Origin: Asparagopsis taxiformis
Lineage: Eukaryota; Rhodophyta; Florideophyceae; Bonnemaisoniales; Bonnemaisoniaceae
Length of the DNA: 64,000 nt
Assembly (NCBI GenBank): GCA_030407315.1
Contig: JALQPE010000610.1
Span: forward strand, 1 to 64,000
Direction of reading: 5' to 3'
Shown: one piece after another, positions 10,904 to 54,370 of the stretch
How the letters are laid out: each line of letters begins with the position of its first letter
How positions within the stretch are numbered: position 1 is the first letter of the stretch
Notes under the pieces: generated by a model
Seen by the model: the letters and a program-made list of their open reading frames with translations, nothing else
The model's database searches: none
Told to the model about the DNA's origin: nothing
Translations under genes and position numbers: made by a program

Positions 10904-13306
10904 ATGAATTACGCTGTGTCGAATTCCAGCGCGTCGCCCAGGCAACCGTTGCCAACGTCAGCGGACGCCGAAGCCGACGTGGCCTTGTCAGCAGAAGCGA
11001 TCTTCGCGACTGATCGATCTATCCCGCCGGATATCGAGGCGATCGGCCAGCTACCACGTACGGTAAGCCCGTTTGAGTCCGTGAGTATGGACCCCGCAAC
11101 GCGCGGTCAGCTCAACGAAGGGAACGTGACTCCCACGGCACTACGTGTAGTGTACGAAGACCTTCGAGGTCACATCGAAAGGGCGAGCGACGCGGCCGTC
11201 GACGAAGCCGTAAGGCAGAGACTCGGAGTCTCGGAGCGCGAAGCTCGTGCGTTACGTGAACGCTCAGCGACCCTCGAACGGGAAAACGAAGATTTACGAA
11301 ACCGCCTCTCCGCCGTGGAGGGAAGACTCGACTCGTTTGTCGTAGTATTCAACGAAATCGTCGCCGGACGTTCCGCTCCGCCGAGCGGAAGCGATCCGAA
11401 TTACGAAGGCTCGCGCGCCTATAACTCGCAATCCTCCCCGGCCGTTCCGGGAGGATACCCACCAACACCCGGTCCGACGACCCCGACAACGTACGGAAGG
11501 GGGGCGACAGTGCAACGAGCCATCGCCCACCCCGACGAGACGCCACGAAGGCAATTACGTTTTAACGATACGCCAGACCACGCGCGGTCGGCGGACGCAG
11601 CACGTGCTGCGCAATTCGATACGAGAGCTCCCCCGCCACGTGAGACGTACATTCCGTGGCTGGGTACGTTCGGCACGACGGACACGCGAGTCCACGAAAA
11701 CGAACGTGCCGACGCGGTACGCTTACCAGGGAACGCCCTCGGACCCGTTTGCCACGCGTTGGCAGAGCACACGACAATGCTCGACGCATTTGCGAACGTG
11801 GTGTCGTACCGCATGTACCGACTTAACGATGTACGTGAACATCTCTACGTGAACGAGAGTCAAAGCGTACATAAGCTCAAACGTGAGCTGGAGGGACTTT
11901 TCCCTACGTTAAAGCCGTTCTCCGGCCGGAATCCGATTACGTTACTCGGATTCCTCGCCCAAATACGTGATGGGTTCAGCACACTCGGAGTGTGCGAGGG
12001 AGTGGCAGTACGTGCGCTGCACTTCTTCCTCGAAGGGGACGCCCGACGGTTCTACGATTCCCAGTGTACGACTGGTGTGATCACGACTGATCCGACGAAG
12101 AGGTTCTCGTGGCCTCACGTAATCAACGCGTTGATCAAACGATACCTGCAAGACGACGTGCTGCAGGAGGCCTACGAAAAGGTCACGATGATCACGCAGA
12201 GTCCTAACGAGGACGAGAATCAGTACGCTGATAGACTCGACACCGCCACGCGGGCGTGTAACTACGTGTTTACGGATCGACTCCTCGTTCACCACTACGT
12301 ACGTGGTTTGCTGCCCTCGACGCGGGCAGCAGTGACGGAACGACTCCGGTCACTCCCCGAACGAGAGAGGAACGACCTCACCGTTGTGAGACGATTGGCG
12401 ACGGCCGAAGGAACGACCTTCCGTGCACGTACGGCAGCTGTCGCGTCAGCCGCGAAACCGAAAGTGCGGTTTCCGGTGAAGCCTACGTTGGCTATTTCCG
12501 ACCACGAGTCGAGGAAGTTCGCGGACTACGATGAGTCCGCGTACTTACGTAATGAACGGGCTAACGAGCCCAGTTACCACGATGGTAACCTGAACATCCC
12601 CGCGAGGGACGACGACGACGTGTCGCTCGCTGCGGTTCACGTTGCCGAGAATTTGGAGGCGATCCTCTTCACGAACGGGCCGCCGCCCAACGATACGAAA
12701 ACGGCAAACGAAAAGCCGGACGAGCTCGAAGCTCGATTGAACCGTCCATGCGAGGACGTGCCGAAGCTCACGAGCGAGCAGACGCAATTGGCGCACTCCG
12801 TAATCCCGAATGATTACTGGACGCTGTCGTGTTGGTCATGCCGCGAAGATGGCCACTCGACGTTTACGTGTCCGCGTCTGACGCCAGATCAACGGATCTT
12901 TTTCGCGTACAAGTACTACCTCTTCCACGTGAAGAGCAACCCACGTCAGGCTGAGTACTTCCGCCAACGAATGGCTAAACGTAACCAGGAACGACCTGGC
13001 GAGCGAGGGAACGTGACCCCGCGGAGGTACGGCACGCCGCCTACGATACTCCGAAACCCCAATCGTGACGGGGGAAGGCCCTTCGACAGGCGCCGCGGCG
13101 ATTTTCGTAATGACCGACGTGACCCCCGCCCGTGGGCGAACGAACGAAATGGCCAGCGTAATGGCCGCAGCGGAGTCTACGTGACGACCTCCGCTGACGA
13201 AACGCCACTCGAGGTGGAAACGAGTCACGATGACGAACGAGCTTCGTGGGCTCACGACGACAACGTGTCGAACGGCCCCGCGCCGGGAAACGACCAGGCG
13301 ATGTAG
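10904..13306 (+). CDS. gag: Gag polyprotein
   Basis: 800 codons from the ATG at 10904, about 100 bp after the 5' LTR. Residues about 77-148 are predicted coiled coil. Residues about 330-490 match the retrotransposon Gag core, with a LKPFSGRNPITLLGFL-type start and a YADRLDTA segment. A CCHC zinc knuckle C-x2-C-x4-H-x4-C (CWSCREDGHSTFTC) lies near residues 642-655, and an arginine-rich nucleic-acid-binding tail follows. The TAG at 13304-13306 ends Gag. The last codons overlap pol, which is read in the -1 frame. The product should form the virus-like particle and package the RNA. The long N-terminal region before the core is rich in alanine, serine and glutamate and has no assigned role. Confidence 0.9.
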   Translation: MNYAVSNSSASPRQPLPTSADAEADVALSAEAIFATDRSIPPDIEAIGQLPRTVSPFESVSMDPATRGQLNEGNVTPTALRVVYEDLRGHIERASDAAVDEAVRQRLGVSEREARALRERSATLERENEDLRNRLSAVEGRLDSFVVVFNEIVAGRSAPPSGSDPNYEGSRAYNSQSSPAVPGGYPPTPGPTTPTTYGRGATVQRAIAHPDETPRRQLRFNDTPDHARSADAARAAQFDTRAPPPRETYIPWLGTFGTTDTRVHENERADAVRLPGNALGPVCHALAEHTTMLDAFANVVSYRMYRLNDVREHLYVNESQSVHKLKRELEGLFPTLKPFSGRNPITLLGFLAQIRDGFSTLGVCEGVAVRALHFFLEGDARRFYDSQCTTGVITTDPTKRFSWPHVINALIKRYLQDDVLQEAYEKVTMITQSPNEDENQYADRLDTATRACNYVFTDRLLVHHYVRGLLPSTRAAVTERLRSLPERERNDLTVVRRLATAEGTTFRARTAAVASAAKPKVRFPVKPTLAISDHESRKFADYDESAYLRNERANEPSYHDGNLNIPARDDDDVSLAAVHVAENLEAILFTNGPPPNDTKTANEKPDELEARLNRPCEDVPKLTSEQTQLAHSVIPNDYWTLSCWSCREDGHSTFTCPRLTPDQRIFFAYKYYLFHVKSNPRQAEYFRQRMAKRNQERPGERGNVTPRRYGTPPTILRNPNRDGGRPFDRRRGDFRNDRRDPRPWANERNGQRNGRSGVYVTTSADETPLEVETSHDDERASWAHDDNVSNGPAPGNDQAM

Positions 13307-13330
13307 GTCACGAGCCACCCACATCGCCTG
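13285..13330 (+). promoter_or_regulatory. -1 programmed ribosomal frameshift signal between gag and pol
   Basis: The slippery heptamer G GGA AAC (13285-13291) sits in the correct phase of the gag frame, and a -1 shift enters the pol frame exactly. Three bases later a perfect 10-bp stem forms: CAGGCGATGT (13295-13304) with ACATCGCCTG (13321-13330) around a 16-nt loop. The gag stop codon lies at the top of the stem. A possible pseudoknot partner was not resolved. The 3-nt spacer is shorter than the usual 5-9 nt. Confidence 0.85.
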
Positions 13331-16300
13331 AACCCTTACGTAAAAGGGGGACGACCGACGTCGATGATTGGTCCTCCGCAGGCTCACCGATGAACGAGAG
13401 CTACGTAAAGCTCACGGCCGCGAAGGCCAACTCGAGTCACACGACACCCGACGTGGGGGAAGAAACGAAGTCCGACGGGACGAACGAACCTCACACGAAG
13501 AGGAAGCCTCGCAGACGAGCGAGACGCGCTACCCGGAAGCACGACGCTTCCGAGCGCGAGAAAGCCAAACACGCGGCTTATACGAAGCGTGTCGACGCAA
13601 AAGAAGCCATACGGGCTCACACGATGAAGCGACGAACCGCTAGCGAAGACGTAGACCGCGCGCCGGTCAGGACCGAACCGTTGGTCCTCGACGGGCATAC
13701 GTGCCTACTTGCGTCGAAGCATTATATCGTATCCGGAACGATCGGACTAGACCTCAACGTGATGAGGGCGATTACCATCGCGATGGATACGTGCAGCGGC
13801 TACAACTTGATACGAACAAGTTTACTACCCTACGACTGGGTCGACCGCTGTCTACGTGACGAAGAGCTGCCGAAGCTCGGAGACGCCAACGGGCGACGTT
13901 TGCCTATCGAAGGCGCCATCCTGCTTCGTGTCAGGCTGGGGAACTCGCTGTTCCGCGTAAAATTCTTCGTAGCCAACACGCTGGCTGTCCCCGTTATAAT
14001 GGGCACGTCGTTCATGTCGAAGCATGTCGATGCTATACGCTGTCGAGCGCAGACAATCGACCTCCATCGGGGGGATACGATACCCATTATCGCGGAGGGC
14101 GATACGACGACTCCGTACGAGGAGGGGGAGGAGACGAATCCAAACGTGGAGCCCCCGAAACGCCGCGAGCGTAACGCGGCCTCGAATAGGCCGAGCCGAA
14201 CGTTCTCGGTTCGCCTGACGAAGTACACGCGTGTACCGGCGATGTCGCAACGGACCGTCAACGTGACGACGGATGCGACCGGACTCGTGTTCCTCGAACC
14301 GAAAGCGTCGGTGCAATTCCGGCATGGGCTGCGCATAGCCAACGGAGTGGTCGACGTAGGACCGAGAGAGACGTTCTCTATCATCGTGTCGAACTTCACG
14401 AAGAAGGACCGCGAATTGCCGAAAGGCGCAACGATTGCGTACGCGGTACGCTCCCCGTTGGGAATCGTCCCACTCAAGCGTGAGGGCGGCGAAGCCCTCG
14501 CGAAGGTTTTGAACCTACCGCTAGTCGACGCGACGACGCGGACGAATACGAACGGGTTGGGCGACGAAACGCCAGACCCGTTGGTCAACGAAAAGGGGAA
14601 CGACCCCGCCACGGATTGGCAGTCGACAATCGATTTGTCGCACCTCGACGACGAGGATTTACGAAAGCGCATCAACGAGATGCTAGCTACACATTCGTCA
14701 ATGTGGACGAGCGGACGCCTCGGCGAAATCAATGCTACGGAGCATCGAATCGAACTCGAACCGGGCACGCGGCCCATACGTTCAATGCCCTATCGTCAGG
14801 GTCCGGCTTTACGTACGATAGCCGAGGAGCAGATCACGAAGATGCTCAACGAAGGGGTTATCGAACCCGCGTCCAGCGAATGGGCGTCACCAATCGTGTT
14901 GGTGCCGAAGAAGGACGGATCCTTACGTTTCTGTGTCGATTACAGGCGTTTGAACGCGAAAACGATCGCTGATTCGTACCCGCTTCCTCGTATGGAAGAC
15001 TGCCTTGATTCGTTGGGCGACGCCGCCATCTTCACGACACTCGATTGTAACGCCGGTTACTGGCAAGTGCCCGTCTCCGCCGAGGACCGTGATAAGACAA
15101 CGTTTACGTCTTTCATGGGAACGTATCGCTACGTGCGAATGCCATTCGGGCTACGAAATGCCCCCGCTACGTTTCAGCGGACGTTGGACATCATCCTCTC
15201 CGGAGTACGTTGGCAATCGTGCCTGGTCTACTTAGACGACGTAATCGTCTTTTCGAAAGACCTCGAGTCTCACCTGGGTCACGTTGACCAGGTGCTTTCC
15301 CTGCTACGCGCAGCGGGAGTAACGTTAAAGCTCACGAAGTGCTCGTTCTTTCAACCACGAGTTGACTACCTGGGGCACGTGATTACCCCAGGGAAGCTGC
15401 ACGTCGCAGCTCGGAACAAGGAAGCCTTTCGTACGGCTACGTTCCCACGCGACAAGACGCAATGTCGATCGTTTTTGGGCGCGGCCAACGTTTACCGCCG
15501 TTTCGTAAAGGCGTATGCCGAGATCGCTCGGCCACTCAACACGATGTTGAAGAAGGACGCTTCCCCCGATTGGACGAACCCAACAAACGCGCAAACGAAT
15601 GCGTTCGAAACGTTGAAGACAATACTGGTGTCGCCACCAGTATTGCACCTTCCGAAGGCGGGACGTCCGTTCATGATCGATACCGACGCGTCGGCGTATC
15701 AGCTGGGAGCTACGTTGCTCCAGCAGCAAAACGAAGACAAGCCCAACGAATGGGTGCCGATTGGGTACTGGTCGAAGACCCTTAACGAAACCGAACGCGG
15801 TTACTCGGCAACGGAGCGCGAGTGTTACTCCGTCGTGTGGGCGATAACGTCGCTCCGACCCTACGTAGAGGGTCAACGATTTACCGTACGTACGGATCAC
15901 GAAGCCTTACGTTGGCTGATGACGTTAACGGACGCGTCCGGACGACTACTACGATGGAGGCTACGCGTTGCCGAATTCGATTTCGAAGTCACGTACAGGC
16001 CTGGGCGCGTGCACCAGGTACCTGACGCTTTATCACGTGTGATATCTACGTATGACGACGGTCGACCCGTCGACGATGACGTACCATCGTACGGGGACGC
16101 GGTCCTCGTGACGACTCGCAGTCGGCGACAACCCACACGAAATGGGCAAGGACGAACGACGTCCGTACGTAAAAAGGCAACGAATGCCAGGGGTCACGAC
16201 GACCCGTCGAACGAGACTCGTGATGAACGAACATCAGCCACGACGGCTGGCCACGATGGCCTCGAGTTCAACCGCGACGCGTCGCTCGATGACGTTCTTG

Positions 16301-17835
16301 ACGAGGAACCGGATTTCCTCGACGAACAGCGCGCTGCTGAAGACGATTCGGCACGCGTGCCACCAGCTGACGTTCAGCTTCCCATTACGAGGGACGAGCT
16401 TATCGAAGCTCAACGCGAGGACGCGTTCTGTCAAACGATACTGACACGACAGTCCGAGACGCAGGACGCTGCATTCTTCGAAGGCCACGATGGCCTACTC
16501 CGACGCCGGAACCCTCACGATGAGGAACGTACACAAATCGTTGTGCCGGCTTCGTTACGGCCGCGGCTGCTGGAGTTAACGCACCACCACGTCCTCGCTG
16601 GACATCCCGGGCAAACGCGTATGTACTATACCCTACGGAGGACGTACTACTGGCCCGCGATGGCCGCCGACATCCACGCAACGGTACGAAACTGCGTTGG
16701 ATGTGCGAAGAACCGCGTGAAGCTTCGCAAACGGACGAACCCGTTACGTTTATTCCCGGCCACGGAGCCGCTGCGAGACCTATGTATCGACATACTAGGT
16801 CCGCTGACGAAGACCACGCGTGGCAACCGATTTATTCTCGTGATAACGGACCGCTTCACGAAGCTAACCAGAGTCGTACCTCTACGTAATATCGATTCCG
16901 CCAACGTGGCGAGCGCGTTCGTCAACGCGTGGGTCTTCTCGTATGGACCCCCACGGACGCTCATAAGCGATAACGGAAAGCAGTTCGCTGCTAAGTTTTT
17001 CCAGCGCGTCTGCAACGAGATTGGCGTAACGAACGTCTTCACGTCGACGTACCACCCCCAAACGAACGGGCAGGTGGAGCGCTACAACAGGACGATCCTG
17101 GCGATGCTGCGCAATTACGTGAACGAAAACCAGAACGACTGGGATCGATACGCATCGGCGTTAACGTTTGCGTACAACACGCATGTGCATTCGAGCACGG
17201 GCACGACGCCCTTCGATTTGATTCTCACGAATCCACCGCCACCGTTGGCGCTACACACGTCGGTAACGAACCGCGAACTACCCGACGGGGGAGGGCGAGC
17301 CACTTACGTTCGTGAGCTCGCCACAACGATGGATAACGCGTATCGAACGCTGAAGGCCGCGCAGGCACGTTATAAACGAAATTTCGACAAGCGAGTCCGT
17401 GTCTCGAATCGAAACATCCGCGCGGGAGAATACGTATTCATCGACCCGACGGACGGGACCACGAAGGGCACGAAGCTCGGCAACCACGCGTTGGGACCGT
17501 TCCGCGTACTACGTAACGACGTACGAACGTTCGTCATCCAACGAGGAGACGTAGTTGAACGTGTCAACTCGGACCGCGTTGCGTACGCGCCAACGCCGGC
17601 GAACGCGCCCCCGCCGGAGCCATACGATGCCACCGAGGCAGACCTCGACAAGAACCGCGACGGTCCGGCGTATGTAGTAGACGACCTACTCAACCACCGC
17701 GTGAACGAGGACGGAACGTTAGACTTCCTCGTGAAGTGGGTCGGGTATCGTAACCCTACGTGGGAACCCCGCCGGAACGTATCTGAAGAGAGCGTCTCTC
17801 GATACTTCGCACGCGTGCGACGAGCAACAACGTGA
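13291..17835 (+). CDS. pol: Pol polyprotein (protease, RT, RNase H, integrase, chromodomain), made as Gag-Pol by -1 frameshift
   Basis: Pol is open from 13246 (GTG) but lacks an early ATG, so entry by frameshift at 13285-13291 is most likely, giving a Gag-Pol of about 2310 residues. Positions here count from 13246. The retropepsin-type protease has DTCSG near residue 181 (usual DTGA or DSGA) and a later VIMGTSF. The reverse transcriptase has YLDD near 662. RNase H begins at DTDAS near 812. The integrase has an HHCC zinc domain near 1109-1150, and a core with aspartates near 1181 and 1241 and glutamate in NGQVERYN near 1277. A chromodomain occupies about 1474-1525 (ending YRNPTWEPRRN...), which in relatives targets insertion to modified chromatin. 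No break is seen. The cysteine in place of glycine at the protease active site is unusual but sits next to the intact aspartate. Confidence 0.93.
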   Translation, partial: RPGDVGHEPPTSPEPLRKRGTTDVDDWSSAGSPMNESYVKLTAAKANSSHTTPDVGEETKSDGTNEPHTKRKPRRRARRATRKHDASEREKAKHAAYTKRVDAKEAIRAHTMKRRTASEDVDRAPVRTEPLVLDGHTCLLASKHYIVSGTIGLDLNVMRAITIAMDTCSGYNLIRTSLLPYDWVDRCLRDEELPKLGDANGRRLPIEGAILLRVRLGNSLFRVKFFVANTLAVPVIMGTSFMSKHVDAIRCRAQTIDLHRGDTIPIIAEGDTTTPYEEGEETNPNVEPPKRRERNAASNRPSRTFSVRLTKYTRVPAMSQRTVNVTTDATGLVFLEPKASVQFRHGLRIANGVVDVGPRETFSIIVSNFTKKDRELPKGATIAYAVRSPLGIVPLKREGGEALAKVLNLPLVDATTRTNTNGLGDETPDPLVNEKGNDPATDWQSTIDLSHLDDEDLRKRINEMLATHSSMWTSGRLGEINATEHRIELEPGTRPIRSMPYRQGPALRTIAEEQITKMLNEGVIEPASSEWASPIVLVPKKDGSLRFCVDYRRLNAKTIADSYPLPRMEDCLDSLGDAAIFTTLDCNAGYWQVPVSAEDRDKTTFTSFMGTYRYVRMPFGLRNAPATFQRTLDIILSGVRWQSCLVYLDDVIVFSKDLESHLGHVDQVLSLLRAAGVTLKLTKCSFFQPRVDYLGHVITPGKLHVAARNKEAFRTATFPRDKTQCRSFLGAANVYRRFVKAYAEIARPLNTMLKKDASPDWTNPTNAQTNAFETLKTILVSPPVLHLPKAGRPFMIDTDASAYQLGATLLQQQNEDKPNEWVPIGYWSKTLNETERGYSATERECYSVVWAITSLRPYVEGQRFTVRTDHEALRWLMTLTDASGRLLRWRLRVAEFDFEVTYRPGRVHQVPDALSRVISTYDDGRPVDDDVPSYGDAVLVTTRSRRQPTRNGQGRTTSVRKKATNARGHDDPSNETRDERTSATTAGHDGLEFNRDASLDDVLDEEPDFLDEQRAAEDDSARVPPADVQLPITRDELIEAQREDAFCQTILTRQSETQDAAFFEGHDGLLRRRNPHDEERTQIVVPASLRPRLLELTHHHVLAGHPGQTRMYYTLRRTYYWPAMAADIHATVRNCVGCAKNRVKLRKRTNPLRLFPATEPLRDLCIDILGPLTKTTRGNRFILVITDRFTKLTRVVPLRNIDSANVASAFVNAWVFSYGPPRTLISDNGKQFAAKFFQRVCNEIGVTNVFTSTYHPQTNGQVERYNRTILAMLRNYVNENQNDWDRYASALTFAYNTHVHSSTGTTPFDLILTNPPPPLALHTSVTNRELPDGGGRATYVRELATTMDNAYRTLKAAQARYKRNFDKRVRVSNRNIRAGEYVFIDPTDGTTKGTKLGNHALGPFRVLRNDVRTFVIQRGDVVERVNSDRVAYAPTPANAPPPEPYDATEADLDKNRDGPAYVVDDLLNHRVNEDGTLDFLVKWVGYRNPTWEPRRNVSEESVSRYFARVRRATT

Positions 17836-32771: not shown

Positions 32772-33948
32772 CTACAGTGTCCGTGTTTTGCTATGTACAT
32801 TTATCAGTCCTGTTGCTAGCTTGGCATCACAAAAAGATGGGCACTGTACAAACCCGCATGATATCACTCTCTTGCGCAAGAAACAGACGTAGGAAGGCTG
32901 AAGAATATAATCACTGCTTGTGGAGGGTCACCATGTCAGTATCGCAATTTGGATTCAAGGTGTAACACATAATGGCAGAGGTCTGTTGAAGGAGAATCTC
33001 GTATCAGACAATTCGAACTTCATGTCCTGGATTTCTAATCAGGGTTTGATTTTTCATATGTCCCTATCGATCCATCTGGTATGCATCATACACGAACTTT
33101 CCTAAAACTAGCCGCAGCACCCGATCAACGAGGCTGAAGAAATGCGATGTGGATATATGAACAGGTGCAGAAAACTTACATGTGCAACATTTCAACGCCC
33201 AACCGTCTGACAGCCGGTGCGGCCGATATGCTCAGGTCATATCCAACGCATGCACGGTGAGCAATTTGCCAATTCTTCCCCAACTTGCTGTTGCGTGGTA
33301 GTTTGGTGACCGCGGTAGAGCGCGATGCCCTCCACAGACGAATCACACCATAAATGTCTGTGAACTGCTATCCGCGGTTTTGAGAGAAGCTTAAATAGAT
33401 GTGGAGCGCATCGCCGTCGTCTCCAATGTGTAGTTCAATTTTTCACTTGAATGTTTTCGGAAATATTTTATTCTTAGCAGCGAACAAAATTTCCCCTTTG
33501 TTTGGAACGTGATGACGTGTCTTTTCGCAATATCGTTCCAAATTTTGGAGACATTAGTGTTTGCTCGATCTCCCTGCCGCCCATGTATCCGAACAATCTA
33601 CAGGCTATGTCACTATTCATTCGTTTTTTTCCTCACAGAGGCGGAGCGAGAGACTATCTGCATAAATTTCACATCTTCCCTACTCACGAGTGTTGATAGC
33701 GACATTTTACATCCTCTCTTGAACCCATGCAGAGAGATTTGCAGCAAGCAGACTGCGCCCGCAGGGCCTCTCTTTAAACATTAGACCTCAACAAAATTAA
33801 CATTCCACAACTAACAACCTATTTCATGTAACTTTGCTACACAAAACAATGCCAGCCACCACACCCTTCTCCATAAACACACTCAGCGAATCAGTCGGGA
33901 CACATCTTGTTCTCGTTCCGAGACACTGCCAGTCCCTCCATCCTCATC
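32772..33948. other. Intergenic between kinase and NADPH oxidase genes
   Basis: No further gene is recognised. It includes the leader of the NADPH oxidase gene. An out-of-frame upstream ATG at 33848 opens a 41-codon ORF that overlaps the start chosen for the oxidase. Confidence 0.45.
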
Positions 33949-36807
33949 ATGGAGAACGTCGTCATGTACACTGAAGATCCCAACAAACCCCTGGGAGACT
34001 TTGAAGATTCCCAAGTATCCAAACGGGACAAGTTGAGATTCTCACTCCACAGCCTTCATGCACGCGTCGAAAGTTATCTATCCAGTCATACATTTGTCTT
34101 TATCTTCCTCATAACGTACGTCAATGCAGTGGCGCTGATGTTCTTCTGGGGTGCTCGTGATGAATATGTACACACAACGACACCCACAATGCGCTGGTTT
34201 ATCACAGTCGCAAGAGGATGGGGCTACACTCTAAATCTTAATTGTGCTCTTGTAATTCTTCTTGCATCTCGTTTGACATTTACGCTGATTCGCGAAACTC
34301 CACTCAACTTGATTATACCCTTCGACAAGAGCTTTCCGGCTTTTCATATCATTGTGGGATACGTCATTCTGCTGGCGGCCATCTTGCACGGTATTTTCCA
34401 TCTCATCTGGATAATTGGGTGGAACAGATGGGGTGCAGGATTATGGGGAGTGAATATGTGTGTCTCAACTGGATTTATCCTTCTTTCAATCTTTATCCTG
34501 ATGGTATCAACATCGCAACCGAAGACGAGGAGCAACAAATTTGAACTGTTTTACTTTATTCATCTCACAGGTGCATTTCTGTTCTTCGTGCTCTTGCTGT
34601 TTCATGGTGTTTATAATGGAGTACCCTATACGTACAAGTGGATAACTGGGCCGCTCATCGTATATTCTATTGATCGCATCATTCGCCGATTGCGGGTGAT
34701 TAATTCATACATTCAACTCTCCAGAGACAACACTGTCCTAAAAGGAGCCAACGTCATTCAAGTGAAACTACCCAAGCAATTTAATTATCGCGCTGGGCAG
34801 TATGCCGGTAAGTGTGAAAATTTTCGAGTAGATCTCTTTCATGAGCGTTACTCCACTCTTGTTTTCTAACCTGCATAATGTTGACCAATCTCAGAGTTGA
34901 AGGTACCGACTATTAAGAAATTCGAATGGCATCGTATGTTAACATTATCTCTTCATGCGAGAACTGTCCTTCGTATCATTCTTTTGCAACTAACAAATGT
35001 TATTTCATTTGCGATCCTCTTCAAAAGCGCAGCTTTCACAATCGCTTCTTCACCACATGAAAAGGACATGATATTTTACATCAAAGCCTTAGGAGATTGG
35101 ACAAATGCCCTGCGAGACGAGTTTCAGAAAAGACTTGATGGTACCGTATCCGACCCAGTATTTGTCCATATTCGCGGACCATATGGCGCTCCAGCGCAAC
35201 ACGTAGCCGGATATCAACGAGTCGTGCTCATCTCAGGAGGCGTGGGATCAACACCGTTCTGCTCCATTGCCAAACATCTACACCAGAACATTGTGGATGA
35301 AGGACTTCCGAAAGAAACCATTGAAAAGATGGACGCGCTCGATAAATCACCAGGAGTGCAAAGAGCCGAGAGGGAAATCAGAAGATGTGTGGCACAGGCG
35401 TACACACAAAGTATACCGATCAACAGCACTGAATGGGACGATGTCGTCGAACAAAACGCACTATCAGTTGAGAAACTATTTGCATCCGCGAATGAATTCC
35501 AGGGAAACTTGCATGGCGCCCCTGTGGTTGTGAAGAAAATGTTTAACAGCGCCTCGCCAGTTGCAAATCGCGATCGGCCGCGGCCGTTTGAAAGTCCAAA
35601 GGCGAATCGTGATAGACCGCGCGCAAAAGCAGACGACCATCTCGGTAGACGAGGAAGGCCATCGAATCAGCTTGATCGTGTGGGGTTATCGTTTCATGAG
35701 CCATCGCCGCTTCATGGGATTGGCAAGCACCTGCATTCTGGTAGGTCTTTAGGGCGAACTGATACATTTGGATCAGTATTTGCCATGCAGACAAAGAAAG
35801 TTGATAGCATTGAACAGGCTAATGCTGTACGTGAAAAGGTCGGGCAGGGATTTCGAGAAAAGTGGCTTAGTTTCTTTCACTCGATTGGGATCAACTTGTT
35901 CCTATACTTGATCCTGCTTGTTCGTGCGGTCATGCTGGGATATGCGTCTATATTTCGGGCGGTGTCTATTAATATGTCCGGGGGAGCTTCGAGCATATTC
36001 AAGAAGAAATGGGTGGTAATAATTGATGTGAGTCTGGCCATAAGTTTGTCAACAATTTTGCTGGTCTCGCTGTGCCTGGAGCTGATTACGTACGATGGAG
36101 CATTTTTCAGAAATCGCGGTCGAATGATAGATCTGTTCATTCTGCTCCCATTGAGTGCTCTGTCGGCGTATGTCGGCATGATCACTCTTCTCGGCCATGG
36201 GGATAGAAACGTAATTCCAACTGGGGTATATTTCGGGGTGATACTGCCGTTGCTATTTTTGCTGATCATCTACCGTTTATATCGCGTCATCGGATCTCGT
36301 GTGTTAATAGCTGACTCAAGCAAGTCGTCTAAATTTGGGAAAATCAGAGCGGTGGACTTCATCTGGACGACTCCATACAGTCAGGATGACGACTGGCTTC
36401 GGGAGGAACTGGAACCTCTTGCGAACGGGAAGCAGCTTCGTCTGCACCGGTTTCTGACGCGTGAGAAGGAGGGAAGCGATGAGTCTGGAAGTAGCAAACA
36501 TGGGGGATTGAGCACGAATTACGGGAGACCAAAGTGGGACGAATTGTTCACAAGGATTGCTGAACGGACGCCTACGAACGGGAAAGTTGGAGTGTTCTTC
36601 TGCGGACCCAAGGCAATGTCTAAGGCGATCCGAATGGCGATGATGAAGGCGCAAGTGTTGAGCACTCTGCGGGGAAAATATCTCGGCACCAGCTGCGATA
36701 GCGATCTAAGCTCGCACTTGCGCCTCAAGGAGCGAGCGGAGCTGCAGCAGTTGCGTAGTCGTGGCAGCAACATTCGTTTCGTGTTCAGGGAAGAGAACTT
36801 TGGCTAA
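33949..36807 (+). CDS. NADPH oxidase (NOX/RBOH family), red-algal type, 3 exons
   Basis: Exons 33949-34807, 34895-34933 (39 nt) and 35033-36807 give 890 residues; introns of 87 and 99 nt (GTAAGT...CAG, GTATGT...CAG) join the FAD motif correctly. The enzyme moves electrons from NADPH through FAD and two haems to O2, producing superoxide outside the membrane. Haem histidines appear as pairs 13 residues apart in two helices (FHII...ILHG and IHLT...LFHG). The FAD site is HPFTIASSPHE near residue 300, the NADPH site GGVGSTPF near 367, and the C-terminus has FFCGP and a final FREENFG. About residues 578-725 insert roughly four extra hydrophobic helices between the two halves of the NADPH-binding region. 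No EF-hand is present, unlike plant RBOHs. Start choice: first in-frame ATG. Confidence 0.93.
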
Positions 36808-46560: not shown

Positions 46561-47025
46561 TGTTGAGACGGAAGCAGTGTGTAAACGGACTGATCCCGAC
46601 CAGATCGGTGCGGTCGTTGCTATGACGGAATCAACGTCACATGTGCACGTGCGTGCAAATTTGTTGCACCATCCGCGGATACACGTGTAGTATATTTGGG
46701 GGCGGAAAGAGACCGTTACGAAGGGCAACTGGGCAGCATTCTGAATTTTCAAACGCAACACACAGTGGATCAAACAATTTGATCTATTAGATCCTCAGCG
46801 GATCACGTGTCTTTTCAGATCGACCTTGGTTGAATTTTTTGGCCGTCATCATCTAGGATGGTACCCGGGATTTTATTACAATTCATGATTCACAAAGTGG
46901 CATGATCGGAAATCTGAACAAATGTTTTAAAAATTTTCGAAATCCCTCGCGTCGCTAGCAGCGACGATGAAAAGCAAACTGTCCTCTGATCACCGAAATT
47001 CACTACGTTACCGTGTTTGCAGGGG
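46561..47025. other. Intergenic, upstream of the snoRNA host gene
   Basis: Divergent promoter region between the PET117-like gene and the snoRNA host gene. No coding feature is seen. Confidence 0.4.
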
Positions 47026-47032
47026 TATAAAT
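47026..47032 (+). promoter_or_regulatory. TATA box of the snoRNA host gene (candidate)
   Basis: TATAAAT lies about 125 bp before the first GTAAGT donor (47153). Transcription would start near 47055. Confidence 0.5.
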
Positions 47033-47189
47033 CCGCCTGGTATCTTCCGCATCAATGCTCTTCCTCCATGCAGAGTCATCAACTGCAATGACCTGAATCA
47101 ATTGATAACAACTGCACTGCAGGAGCGATGCGATCAATCGGATGGATATTGGGTAAGTGCTTTCGGAATGTATTCGTTCCGCATTGAAG

Positions 47190-47283
47190 ACGACAATGAT
47201 GACGACAAATTCGCACTGGCTGTTGCCAATACCCGTTGGCAATTGATGAGAATTAGTTGGACGTTCAACCTGTCTGAGTCTAG
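47190..47283 (+). ncRNA. Box C/D snoRNA candidate 1
   Basis: C box ATGATGA 47196-47202, D box CTGA 47274-47277, flanking AGAC/GTCT can pair. The internal hairpin TTGCCAA...TTGGCAA precedes a GATGA C'-like box. The guide region differs from the other members. Confidence 0.75.
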
Positions 47284-47418
47284 ATGTTTCTACGTGAGAT
47301 CAGATTGATGTACTAACCAGCAATTGGATTCTGGCAGGCTCGTACCCAAACCTATGGTGATTGAGCGAATATCAACGGCGGGGTATGTTGAAGTGTATTC
47401 CATTTTCAGCTCTCTTGT

Positions 47419-47508
47419 TGGCGATGATGATGGAGATTCGCACCGACTTAGTCACTGTCCTCGACAGATGAAGACTTCGCCTGCATATGTTTACCCGTCT
47501 GAGGTTAG
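47419..47508 (+). ncRNA. Box C/D snoRNA candidate 2
   Basis: C box ATGATGA 47424-47430, C'-like ATGAAGA 47468-47474, D box CTGA 47499-47502. It carries the family core CTTAGTCACTGTCCTCGACA with its CTGTC-CTC-GACAG hairpin. The terminal stem is weak. Confidence 0.8.
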
Positions 47509-47649
47509 CCCGCGTTGACTATGGTTCATTCATCAACTGACAAGAGTTCATTCTGGCGCCTTAGGACGCTATTACATCCCAAGACCAATTGCTGTAGCGC
47601 ATTGATGGGTACGTTCGAGTTTATCCTGTCGGCTATGTCGCAATAATAG

Positions 47650-47739
47650 CAAGGATGATCGAGGTTCGCATCGACTTAGTCACTGTCCTCGACAGATGAA
47701 GATTTCGCTTGCAGATGTTTGTTTACCCGTCTGAGCAAA
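47650..47739 (+). ncRNA. Box C/D snoRNA candidate 3
   Basis: C box ATGATCG (variant) at 47655, D box CTGA 47731-47734. Same core and hairpin as candidate 2, and the same TTTACCCGT before the D box. Confidence 0.75.
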
Positions 47740-47858
47740 GTCCGATCGTTCAGCCATTCAGCCGCGCTAACAGTGGCTTATTTTATCCCCAGGTATTCCT
47801 TCTGTTCGAACGACTCGAAGACTTCGGAATTGTAAGTGTGCTGTGATCGACATTTATT

Positions 47859-47947
47859 GAGAGATGATGATGGAGACCCGCATCGACTTAGTCACTGTCC
47901 TCGACAGATGATGATTTCGTCTGCATTTTATGCCCGTCTGATACCTG
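47859..47947 (+). ncRNA. Box C/D snoRNA candidate 4
   Basis: C box ATGATGA 47864-47870, C'-like ATGATGA, D box CTGA 47938-47941. Family core intact. The sequence before the D box is changed to ATGCCCGT. Confidence 0.8.
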
Positions 47948-48056
47948 GCCCATCACCGTGTCTCGTCAATGCGCTAACATTTATGTATTCGTTCGGCGTT
48001 ATAGAGTACAATACTCTTTCATGGAAGCAGTAAGTTGACTCATTGCGATCGTACAT

Positions 48057-48145
48057 ACACAATGATGATGGAGGTTCGCACCGACTTAGTCACTGTCCTC
48101 GACAAATGATGATTTCGTCTGCATTCAATGCCCGTCTGAGGAATG
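48057..48145 (+). ncRNA. Box C/D snoRNA candidate 5
   Basis: C box ATGATGA 48062-48068, C'-like ATGATGA, D box CTGA 48136-48139. Nearly the same as candidate 4, including ATGCCCGT before the D box. Confidence 0.8.
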
Positions 48146-48252
48146 TTCAAGACTATCGCCCATATCTGTCTACTAACTGGTTAAGTTCCTGATTAGACCC
48201 GGATTCACTGGAGAAGATCCACATCAACCGGTAAGTGGTAACATGTCAAACC

Positions 48253-48340
48253 CTACTGTGATGATTAGGGTTCGCACGGTCTTAGTCAATGTCCTCGACA
48301 CATGAAGACTTCGTCTGCGACTAAGCCTGTCTGAGTGGTA
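48253..48340 (+). ncRNA. Box C/D snoRNA candidate 6
   Basis: C box GTGATGA 48258-48264, C'-like ATGAAGA, D box CTGA 48331-48334. Core slightly diverged (CTTAGTCAATGTCCTCGACA) with hairpin pairing kept as TGTC/GACA. Confidence 0.78.
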
Positions 48341-48448
48341 TGCGCTGGTTTTCACGCCATGGAGTTCTAACACAATCTTTAGACAATGGAATCTGAAGTG
48401 TCGGCAAAGAGAAGGTAAGGATGGTTGATATGCTCGCGAATATTCGAA

Positions 48449-48535
48449 GCATGCTCTGATGTACAGAAATGTACTTAGTCGGTGTCCTCGACAGAAGATG
48501 ATACTGTCTGCGTTCTATGCCCTTCTGATGCATGC
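48449..48535 (+). ncRNA. Box C/D snoRNA candidate 7
   Basis: C-box-like CTGATGT 48456-48462, D box CTGA 48525-48528. The terminal stem GCATGC (48449-48454) with GCATGC (48530-48535) is strong. Core TGTCCTCGACA kept. Confidence 0.75.
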
Positions 48536-48647
48536 GGGCGATGATTTTGGGTACTGATATCTAACCTCAGAATCGCTTGTAATAACTGAATGGACGTGCA
48601 GGAAATGTTGATGAACTGCAAGGTACGTCGTTCTTCTACTGGATTAC

Positions 48648-48736
48648 GTCACTATGATGACGATGATCCGCACTATCTTAGGCCGAGTCCCGGTCAGAGG
48701 ATGAGATTAGGTCGGAACAGTTGGTCGCTGAGTGAC
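48648..48736 (+). ncRNA. Box C/D snoRNA candidate 8
   Basis: C box TGATGA 48655-48660, D box CTGA 48728-48731, terminal stem GTCAC (48648-48652) with GTGAC (48732-48736). It keeps CTTAG, but the rest of the core differs, so its guide is distinct. Confidence 0.8.
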
Positions 48737-48831
48737 AGCCCTGTTGTATGGAGGATGGAATCTAACATTGTATTCGGCATGTCTTCCGCGTAGATCTTGG
48801 AGAGAATGGTAAGGTATAGATGTCCTATGGG

Positions 48832-48911
48832 ATGTGATGATGACGTGAGCAACTTCTGCAGTCGATGCCTCGACCATTGATGATATGCATCTGTTTACCC
48901 GTCTGAGCATC
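48832..48911 (+). ncRNA. Box C/D snoRNA candidate 9
   Basis: C box TGATGA 48836-48841, C'-like TGATGAT, D box CTGA 48903-48906, stem GATG/CATC (48832-48835, 48908-48911). Internal hairpin GTCGA...TCGAC. It shares TTTACCCGT before the D box with candidates 2 and 3. Confidence 0.8.
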
Positions 48912-49070
48912 ACTTTTGGGGGAAACGAGGCTGGAATTCTAACATTACATCGTCATGGTTGTTACAGTGGATACATCTGCGAAAGGTATACGATACGTTG
49001 GTGCAGTATCGAATCCTCTCCCGTCCAGGATTCTCGAGAAGAATTGTTGGAAGTTCTGACGGTGTAAATA

Positions 49071-49393
49071 CATGTCGAGACTCATTTGTTACATTGTAAA
49101 TATAATTCGTCTGAGGTCAACGTAGTGCGAAACGTTTTGAAGGATGAGAATGGCGTAAGCGGAAATGGTCCGAACGGGATTGCGCGAAATTGAATACGCT
49201 ATTTCGTCTGTTTGGCATTCTTCTGTAGAGAAAGGGACCCGTGTACCTAGCGGAAATTCCTCAAGGGTGAAATTGGTGTTGTTTGTCCTGCTAGATCCGG
49301 TTTCGTCGCGGCGAAGCTCTTTGACTCTCAGGTGGGGAATCGATGGTGTAGGACGGGGGTAATACTATGTATTATGGCAGCGGTGAAATCACT
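49071..49393. other. Spacer after the snoRNA host gene
   Basis: No gene recognised. A CTGA at about 49110 lacks a matching C box at snoRNA distance. Confidence 0.4.
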
Positions 49394-53070: not shown

Positions 53071-53245
53071 GCTGCACCTATTTGCTTTCATCTTTGACTC
53101 GGCTTTTAATTTCAAAATCATTCGGAAATATGTAGTATTATAATATTTGCCACCGCCCGACACTTCGATCATCCAGACTTGTAAATCATGTCTCCGAAGG
53201 CGGCGGCGTAACTCAACTCCTCCATCTCCACCAACACGAACCATC

Positions 53246-54370
53246 ATGAGCTGGCCATGGATAGGCCCCAATTCCGTCCCATATCCCATACCACCCAGCA
53301 ACCTCGCCCCGCCTCTCATGCCTCCGCCGCCAGGTCAGCAAATCCCTCTGTCTGCAACACCTGCCAACATACCCCGTCCACCGATCCAATTCAACCCATC
53401 TCTCAATCCTCCTCCGCCATTCTCCAGTGCGCCCCCGCCACCGCCCAATTTCGATGCATTCTTCCCGCCCAACCAGTCGTTCCGGCCCTGGGGTCCGGGC
53501 GCCGCATACCCGCCCAATGCCTACCAGCCACAAGCCCCCCAGCCAGGCGTCTCGTTCCAATACCCATCCATGCCTCCCGCCCCGTTTCCGCCGCACCGCG
53601 GCTTCGCGCCAGCAATCCTTGCAAACGCACGCAGCGACGCCGCCCATCACCACCCCAAAAAAGCGAGGACTGACGGTCCCCCCGTTGCCGGCGTATCTGC
53701 GAGAGACGTGTCAGAGGTCGCTCGCAAAGCGCAGAAGAAAAGGGATGTTAACCCGAGAGACGCCGCCATGTGTGAACAGGTGTTGAAGAAACTCGGAGCA
53801 AAGTTACCCGGGGAATCCAAGGATGATATAGATCGCTGGGTTGCGGAGCGTCGGAAGAACTGGCCGTCCCGTGCGAATGTGGCCAGGAAATTGGAGGAAA
53901 AAGCGCAGAAGGAGGCGAAAGGCCACATTTCTCGTAAGGACAAGGGTGGAAGCGGCGGTTTTGACTCCCAGTCCGTTTCTAGGAAGAGGTCGCGTCAAAT
54001 GACAGACGATTTGCAGTGTCAGAATTCGCTGCAGAGGCTTGCGACGGAGTATTGCAGTAGCAGTGAGGGCGAGGAGGGGGAGATCAAGGCTTCAGCCGGG
54101 GATACGGTTGAGGGCAAGGAGGCTGAGCCGAGTGATGGCAAACATGCAGGTCAGGGGCGCGGTAATGGGGTGAGGAATAAGAAGCGAAATGGTAGGAATA
54201 GTAGAACTCGAGCTCGGAAAGGAAAACCTCAGCAAGTACACGCGCCTTCACGCCCGAGTCTGCTACGAAACTTGCTCGAAGATGAAATTCGGAAGGAGCA
54301 TTCGGCGTTGCTGCAGGCGTTCCGGTATATTGTCTCAAAGGAGAAAGCAGCGTCTAGTGAGGAACATTAA
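53246..54370 (+). CDS. NUFIP1/Rsa1-like box C/D snoRNP assembly factor
   Basis: 374-codon intronless frame from the ATG at 53246; the frame is open upstream only to a TTG. Residues 1-130 are proline-rich and disordered. A central segment (about 190-230) containing DDIDRWVAERRKNWPSRANV matches the NUFIP1 core, where a W-x-A/E-R-x-K-N-x-P motif binds the 15.5K/SNU13 protein of C/D snoRNPs. A lysine/arginine-rich, glutamate-patched region and a helical C-terminus follow. The family bridges the R2TP chaperone complex and nascent snoRNPs. The gene lies 4.3 kb from the snoRNA cluster. That closeness may be chance. Confidence 0.8.
   Translation: MSWPWIGPNSVPYPIPPSNLAPPLMPPPPGQQIPLSATPANIPRPPIQFNPSLNPPPPFSSAPPPPPNFDAFFPPNQSFRPWGPGAAYPPNAYQPQAPQPGVSFQYPSMPPAPFPPHRGFAPAILANARSDAAHHHPKKARTDGPPVAGVSARDVSEVARKAQKKRDVNPRDAAMCEQVLKKLGAKLPGESKDDIDRWVAERRKNWPSRANVARKLEEKAQKEAKGHISRKDKGGSGGFDSQSVSRKRSRQMTDDLQCQNSLQRLATEYCSSSEGEEGEIKASAGDTVEGKEAEPSDGKHAGQGRGNGVRNKKRNGRNSRTRARKGKPQQVHAPSRPSLLRNLLEDEIRKEHSALLQAFRYIVSKEKAASSEEH

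Follow-up and report, generated by a model that had tools for sequence, protein, structure and literature searches.

The 64-kb window analysed here (the whole stretch of DNA, 64,000 nt) carries on its forward strand a candidate non-coding gene of ten exons and nine introns, in which every intron contains one unit resembling a box C/D small nucleolar RNA (snoRNA). Judged from sequence, the locus is very probably a snoRNA host gene of the UHG type, from a probable red alga. Its nine introns extend across 47153-48967 (+), are 152-187 nt long, and show GTANG donors, CTAAC or CTGAC branch sites, and AG acceptors; the first and last coordinates given below for each intron are the donor and the end of the acceptor.

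47026..47032 (+), candidate TATA box, TATAAAT, from sequence
47055..49070 (+), candidate snoRNA host gene, non-coding, ten exons and nine introns, both limits approximate
47058..47067 (+), CTCTTCCTCC, a 10-nt oligopyrimidine and candidate start resembling a 5′ terminal oligopyrimidine (5′TOP), 32 nt past the start of the TATA box
47153..47337 (+), intron 1, branch site CTAAC at 47313
47383..47564 (+), intron 2, branch site CTGAC at 47537
47609..47792 (+), intron 3, branch site CTAAC at 47767
47832..48004 (+), intron 4, branch site CTAAC at 47974
48030..48196 (+), intron 5, branch site CTAAC at 48173
48231..48382 (+), intron 6, branch site CTAAC at 48367
48415..48601 (+), intron 7, branch site CTAAC at 48561
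48623..48793 (+), intron 8, branch site CTAAC at 48762
48809..48967 (+), intron 9, branch site CTAAC at 48939

A sequence-only reading of this DNA had described nine introns of 152-185 nt with one C/D unit each, the C box lying 26-46 nt past the donor and the D box ending 48-63 nt ahead of the acceptor in eight of them. The anatomy was re-derived, and these figures proved right within a few bases: the lower limits of 152 and 26 nt held, the upper limits became 187 and 44 nt, and the distance from the D-box end to the acceptor was again 48-63 nt in eight of nine introns, with intron 7 as the outlier at 73 nt. Intron 7 is indeed exceptional when measured to its acceptor, but not when measured to its branch site (32 nt). 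A nearer AG in this intron, ending at 48570, lies 6 nt past the branch A and is unlikely as an acceptor.

TATAAAT and the downstream CTCTTCCTCC suggest that transcription may start there. The eight internal exons are 15-45 nt long, and the spliced exons contain no significant open reading frame (ORF), the longest one beginning with ATG being 54 aa (shuffle p 0.17) and the longest stop-to-stop frame 86 codons (shuffle p 0.09); protein-coding exons are not supported. Among the neighbouring genes with Pfam matches, several consist of one long ORF, so that introns look sparse nearby and dense at the snoRNA host.

Box C/D units in the introns

Each unit has C, D′, C′ and D boxes and an internal hairpin, and spans 72-82 nt from C to D. 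The C box (RTGATGA), close to the 5′ end, is exact in seven of nine units, with one mismatch in unit 3 and two in unit 7, and the D box CTGA, close to the 3′ end, is present in all nine. A C′-like box was likewise recognised in every unit, while D′ is degenerate (unit 1 has CTGT or CTGG, unit 9 has CTGC, and units 2-8 have CTTA); D′ and C′ boxes were assigned by eye on the alignment.

47192..47282 (+), C/D snoRNA 1, C box 47197, D box 47274, 7-bp internal hairpin, 3-bp terminal stem
47420..47507 (+), C/D snoRNA 2, C box 47425, D box 47499, 6-bp terminal stem
47648..47739 (+), C/D snoRNA 3, C-like GGATGA 47653, D box 47731, weak 2-bp terminal stem
47860..47946 (+), C/D snoRNA 4, C box 47865, D box 47938, terminal stem not clear
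48058..48144 (+), C/D snoRNA 5, C box 48063, D box 48136, post-C′ element 48114-48122, terminal stem not clear
48254..48339 (+), C/D snoRNA 6, C box 48259, D box 48331, 5-bp terminal stem, post-C′ element 48310-48318
48451..48533 (+), C/D snoRNA 7, C-like TGATGT 48457, D box 48525, 6-bp terminal stem
48650..48736 (+), C/D snoRNA 8, C box 48655, D box 48728, 5-bp terminal stem
48830..48911 (+), C/D snoRNA 9, C box 48835, D box 48903, 4-bp terminal stem

The hairpin that follows D′ varies in sequence among unit 1, units 2-7, unit 8 and unit 9, and it folds better than shuffled sequence at p <=0.05 in units 1, 2, 3, 4 and 9 (p 0.06-0.16 in units 5-8). The contiguous terminal-stem pairs number 3, 6, 2, 1, 1, 5, 6, 5 and 4 in units 1-9, so six units have a stem of 3-6 bp and the stems of units 3, 4 and 5 are weak. 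The flanks of each unit pair better with their own partner than with swapped ones, a result reached in 0 of 20,000 permutations for flanks of 6 or 8 nt and with p 0.0005 and 0.0017 for 10 and 12 nt. Single-strand folding of the units gave z values from -2.0 to +0.3.

No Rfam family reached its gathering score in the window, and no tRNA was found there either. When matches with E up to 10 were admitted for 46800-49300, five appeared at chance level, all of them to C/D snoRNA families and four inside the locus (E 0.08-5). U3 (RF00012) had no match in the assembly, which is not evidence of its absence there, and the window is without U3 at gathering score.

An ORF of 407 aa with a NUFIP1 domain (PF10453, E 1.7e-11) lies at 53147-54370 (+), on the strand of the snoRNA host and approximately 4 kb downstream of it. 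NUFIP1 is a C/D small nucleolar ribonucleoprotein (snoRNP) assembly factor, and the closeness of the two may be chance.

Nine paralogous units at a constant distance from the branch site

The distance from the D-box end to the branch C is 35, 34, 32, 32, 33, 32, 32, 30 and 32 nt in introns 1-9 (mean 32.4, standard deviation 1.4), whereas the donor-to-C, branch-to-acceptor and D-to-acceptor distances have standard deviations of 6.5-7.1. Five branch motifs were scanned and gave one match per intron, so the branch sites were not hand-picked. Sequence similarity in the D-to-branch segment is 0.67 over all pairs and 0.64 among units 2-7, against 0.68 for shuffled segments; the spacing is kept while the sequence is not. 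Such constancy would fit snoRNP assembly coupled to splicing. The sequence-only reading had mentioned neither this spacing, nor the TATA box and oligopyrimidine, nor the spacer complementarity described below.

All nine units can be aligned and are paralogues, which upholds the earlier grouping of units 2-7 and adds units 1, 8 and 9 to it, and neighbouring units are more alike (Mantel p 0.007). A shared 20-mer is exact in units 2-5, one base off in unit 6 and two in unit 7. Within units 2-7, identity is 95% in the block of D′ and hairpin, 81% in C′, and 69% in the C-to-D′ and C′-to-D stretches. The alignment of all nine, the closer likeness of neighbours, and the lower conservation of the guide stretches relative to D′ and hairpin fit the proposal that units were duplicated locally and then changed their guides.

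A profile derived from the nine units recovered those nine, by construction, with no further match in the window up to E 10. The whole assembly (141,494,207 bases in 3156 contigs) was searched with an 86-base copy of unit 4, which matched units 2, 3, 4, 5 and 7 of the locus and no other sequence. This search passes over units 1, 6, 8 and 9 and leaves very common words aside, so that it would also overlook distant copies elsewhere. An ordinary satellite, which had been named as one case that would refute the snoRNA interpretation, is not supported, as close copies in the 141-Mb assembly are confined to the locus in the unit-4 search.

The module formed by a C box (RTGATGA, up to one mismatch), CTGA, and CT[AG]AC 25-40 nt further on was counted on both strands of the window, and occurred at 8 distinct D boxes inside the locus against 1 in the remainder. 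Requiring an exact C box changed the counts to 7 and 0, and allowing two mismatches to 9 and 5; at one mismatch, 500 shuffled versions of the locus had a mean of 0.066 and a maximum of 1. Since the units are paralogous, they do not count as nine independent events. Genome-wide, RTGATGA-N52..80-CTGA-N29..36-CTAAC had 13 matches, comprising seven at the locus (in six of nine introns) and six scattered singletons, and the reversed-pattern control had 19, indicating that the module outside the locus is at chance level. Elsewhere in this organism, snoRNAs may have a different arrangement or rely on other branch signals. Taken together, the introns, module controls, spacing, stems and ORF test give good sequence support to the UHG/GAS5-like non-coding host that had been proposed.

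Complementarity to the spacer before the SSU rRNA

Ribosomal DNA (rDNA) was located in the assembly through 5.8S, and one unit was read in part, covering the first 935 nt of the large-subunit (LSU) rRNA. A search of rRNA and U6 for methylation targets had been suggested; guide scans revealed no site that convinces in the small-subunit (SSU) rRNA, in 5.8S, in U6, or in the first 935 nt of LSU, with overall guide p values of 0.12-0.24 for SSU and 0.74-0.90 for the start of LSU. Near SSU 644 lies a site that suits the D′ guides of unit 3 (shuffle p 0.01) and unit 4 (shuffle p 0.15) but not the family.

Complementarity was found instead in the spacer before SSU, whose positions are counted from base 1926 of the rDNA locus L012, 4 nt inside the Rfam SSU start. 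The whole C-to-D sequences of the nine RNAs share 48 complementary 8-mers with the sense strand of the 1925 nt before SSU, 46 of them within a core from -1800 to -900, where approximately 6-9 are expected. Genomic windows of 1925 nt (n=122) had a mean of 15.6 and a maximum of 36, the reverse complement of the spacer had 13, and stretches further upstream had 5-16. In bins of 300 nt, the counts were 10, 15 and 19 within -1800 to -900 and 0-5 in eleven others back to -4200, and the highest of 1218 window-derived targets of 900 nt reached 30, against 46 in the core. Permutation of the snoRNA columns, which retains both the snoRNA paralogy and the spacer repeats, gave, with k=8 and 10,000 permutations, p 1e-4 in the core and p 5e-4 across the 1925 nt, the latter becoming ~0.004 once the eight regions tried are allowed for. 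None of 604 random genomic query segments attained the core count, and same-gene intron flanks, exons and reverse-complemented snoRNAs scored 12, 2 and 4, respectively; at k=9, the snoRNAs scored 23 and each of these controls 0. Of the 497 non-box positions, 162 lie within complementary matches, and of the 195 box positions, 4 do. The spacer domain is A-rich (A 0.32-0.44 from -2000 to -750) with G/T-rich flanks. Grouped D guides in the 1925 nt were equalled by 5 of 200 shuffles, and a gap-tolerant alignment beat permuted snoRNAs with p 0.001. The summed best-run score of the spacer, attained by 0 of 240 genomic windows, was not relied on because composition-matched spacer shuffles gave weaker values.

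The motifs on the sense strand of the spacer, and the snoRNA elements complementary to it, are as follows.

-1712, -1653 and -1487, sense, CGGGTAAACA three times, for the D guides of units 2, 3 and 9, up to 12 pairs
-1507, -1420, -1164, -1113 and -1043, sense, GCAGGCGAA five times, for the post-C′ stretch of unit 2, and of units 3-6 with one G.U
-1445, sense, GACCAACTG, for the D guide of unit 8
-1393, -1347, -1145, -1093 and -1023, sense, GAGGACA five times, for the conserved hairpin TGTCCTC
-1360, sense, GCGAATCTC, for the D′ guide of unit 2
-1197 and -1065, sense, AAGGGCAT twice, for the D guide of unit 7
-1063, sense, GGGCATAA, for the D guide of unit 4
-966, sense, CAGTGCGAATT once, for the D′ guide of unit 1
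47208-47218 (+), snoRNA 1 D′ guide, nt 12-22, spacer site -966, 11 Watson-Crick pairs
47433-47441, 47455-47462, 47476-47484 and 47488-47497 (+), snoRNA 2 D′ guide, hairpin, post-C′ element and D guide, spacer-complementary
47719-47729 (+), snoRNA 3 D guide, spacer site -1487, 11 pairs
47925-47935 (+), snoRNA 4 D guide, spacer site -1063, 10 Watson-Crick pairs and 1 G.U
48516-48524 (+), snoRNA 7 D guide, spacer site -1065, 9 pairs
48718-48726 (+), snoRNA 8 D guide, spacer site -1445, 9 pairs
48890-48901 (+), snoRNA 9 stretch, spacer site -1712, 12 pairs

The post-C′ elements of units 2-6 can pair with all five GCAGGCGAA sites, as the differences among them swap C-G for U.G and nothing more, and the four blocks of snoRNA 2 are collinear with the spacer from -1487 to -1352. 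The motifs CGGGTAAAC, GGGCAT[AT]A and GTGCGAAT were present in six of six rDNA copies checked. Across seven rDNA copies, 1 of 155 target positions was variable versus 27 of 745 others (p 0.07). Divergent rDNA was of no help as a test of co-variation: contig C3152 has half an SSU and no matching spacer, the spacer of C2568 is 99% identical, C1320 is foreign rDNA, and the SSU match of C1142 is distant (63%). The rDNA on C1320 is eukaryotic, with SSU pieces 78-86% identical, and that on C3152 is divergent and truncated, with SSU only from position 893 (96% identical) and an internal transcribed spacer 1 at 90%. By eye, a stretch of ~70 nt, with CCGTATCGAGTGTGTAGACA within it, occurs twice at approximately -2350 to -2150, just upstream of the A-rich domain, and could be a duplicated promoter element.

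The rDNA in the assembly is eukaryotic, and 13 matches to phycobilisome proteins were obtained, 11 of them on contig C469. Glaucophytes also have phycobilisomes, so a red alga, as the sequence-only reading had supposed, is the likely source and not a proven one. Elsewhere in the window are an ORF for a Plavaka transposase (4142-6973, -), a Gypsy-type element with a chromodomain (10904-17835, +), and ferric reductase/NADPH-oxidase-like domains over two adjoining ORFs (33907-36807, +).

Proposed function, alternatives and known systems

In the account we propose, the locus would be a TATA-driven, probably 5′TOP-like RNA polymerase II gene, with a short non-coding transcript made up of ten small exons. 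Each C/D snoRNA, fixed 30-35 nt upstream of the branch site, would be assembled into a snoRNP on the intron during splicing, and would be released by debranching and trimming. The nine RNAs are tandem paralogues with a variable D guide, post-C′ stretch and D′-C′ hairpin and, in some, a variable D′ guide, and these elements would pair with repeated motifs in the A-rich domain of the pre-rRNA 5′ spacer, ~900-1800 nt before SSU. Several copies would probably sit side by side on the nascent 5′ external transcribed spacer (ETS) as pairing chaperones like U3, and this chaperone effect would shape the SSU processome or ETS cleavage, with 2′-O-methylation of the spacer as a by-product. The complementarity offers a reason for guide change among the copies, which would follow the ETS repeats as they diverge. 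Action of the family through 5′ ETS pairing appears fairly probable, and we hold the whole account, an intronic C/D host gene with a multi-copy family of ETS-pairing chaperones, with moderate confidence. A bolder version is tentative and rather doubtful: a multivalent antisense set in which the nine snoRNAs co-evolve with degenerate 5′ ETS repeats, several docking on each nascent pre-rRNA via 2-4 short duplexes apiece, and forming an RNA scaffold for the SSU processome that adds to, or in part replaces, the ETS contacts of U3. Unit 4 is an example, as its sites follow in order, GGGCATAAGAT at -1063, GCAGGCGAA at -1043 and GAGGACA at -1023.

The sequence itself shows the gene anatomy, the paralogy, the fixed spacing, the stem pairing, and the complementarity with its location, and from it we infer expression, splicing, transcription of the spacer at -1800 to -900, binding, and function. 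Several observations weigh against ETS pairing. The core limits were drawn after the hits had been seen. Per-guide best hits in the 1925 nt are suggestive (four statistics gave p 0.018, 0.030, 0.088 and 0.005, eight regions having been tried), and grouped D′ guides were equalled by 45 of 200 shuffles, which is not significant. Full-length duplex energies carried no signal (sum -452 versus -447 for a null of 30 windows), and the gap-tolerant alignment did not stand out from genomic windows (p 0.58). Taken singly in the core, units 4, 5, 6, 7 and 8 were not significant (p 0.34, 0.52, 0.05, 0.17 and 0.09), and for the D guides of units 1 and 6 the spacer offers no good site. GGGCAT[AT]A also occurs near -4.1 kb and GTGCGAAT near -4.5 (in two copies, -7.2 kb), amounting to 1-2 extra occurrences upstream. 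The D guides of units 9 and 2 form 12 and 11 pairs including G.U (shuffle p 0.05 and 0.21) with GCGGGTAAACGGCGGG, a conserved LSU core used as a proxy, and a mature-rRNA target beyond the 935 nt of LSU scanned would count in the same direction.

These last two points would favour an ordinary UHG-type host whose guides methylate mature rRNA, mainly LSU beyond the first 935 nt, with the spacer match incidental, and such targets are what ordinary C/D guides mostly have. We regard this explanation as rather unlikely, given that the scanned SSU, 5.8S, U6, and LSU start offered no convincing site, and that the spacer match is localised, sense-only, and outside the boxes. A 2111-nt part of yeast 25S, used as a stand-in for LSU and a weak lead, contains 4-6 complementary 8-mers per 900 nt, versus 46 in the spacer core. 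A relic, in which the snoRNA bodies and ETS repeats descend from a shared inverted-duplication ancestor and no longer pair, would explain the collinear blocks of snoRNA 2 and the similar GCAGGCGAA-to-GAGGACA spacing in spacer and snoRNA, but it should span the boxes unless these were restored, and they are nearly free of complementarity; the post-C′ differences, moreover, retain pairing via G.U, and we consider a relic improbable. It is very improbable that the locus is a short protein-coding gene, or a repeat or satellite lacking snoRNA function, since, although units 2-7 are clear sequence repeats and one frame is open for 86 codons, close copies are confined to one locus, the stems match their own flanks, branch spacing is fixed over unrelated sequences, and the longest ATG ORF has 54 aa.

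The host gene resembles known systems in several respects. Animal UHG and GAS5 begin with a 5′TOP, and the oligopyrimidine seen here in the sequence is a candidate for the same kind of start. The locus shares an intron-containing host, short ORFs only, and intronic C/D snoRNAs with animal UHG/GAS5 (SNHG) genes and with UHG-like genes of Neurospora crassa, whose clusters I-V, as described in passages of PMC2780460, mean that such non-coding hosts outside animals were already known. It differs from UHG/GAS5 hosts in that all nine snoRNAs form one paralogous family, at near-constant branch spacing, in a probable red alga. A literature search on rhodophyte snoRNA host genes found none in the library searched, and a survey of plant snoRNA families that includes C. 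merolae describes no such host in the passages concerned; red-algal snoRNA host genes seem little described.

The short fixed distance upstream of the branch point recalls the position-dependent C/D snoRNP assembly attributed to AQR/IBP160. According to passages of PMC10234308 and PMC8162545, a few human snoRNAs need a distance of 40-50 nt to the branch point and AQR/IBP160 binds 33-40 nt upstream, and the paper reporting the 40-50-nt dependence places most expressed human snoRNAs at least 100 nt from the branch point. Here the D-box end lies 34-39 nt from the branch A, and a coupling of this kind would operate here too. Because nine introns keep the distance and not the sequence, the locus is a clean natural test of the snoRNA-to-branch-point rule.

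For the proposed ETS pairing, passages of PMC6411936 and PMC7277114 describe U3 as pairing with multiple 5′ ETS sites, and in the former T. brucei TB10Cs4C3 uses the stretch immediately before box D to pair with the 5′ ETS. The C/D snoRNA-5′ ETS pairing predicted here from sequence is of the same kind, and the mechanism would be a variant of a known one. U3, however, is described as a large snoRNA with extra boxes (PMC6315972) and as independently transcribed (PMC7277114), in contrast with a tandem family of nine small C/D RNAs on repeated spacer motifs. A narrowly phrased literature search for snoRNA families that have ETS repeats as pairing partners, weak as proof of novelty, found none. If the ETS pairing is true, this would be a fast-evolving snoRNA family following a spacer, and the origin of new processing snoRNAs and the organisation of non-conserved spacers would become testable. 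What would be new, compared with U3 and TB10Cs4C3, is a nine-fold tandem family matching repeated motifs of the spacer.

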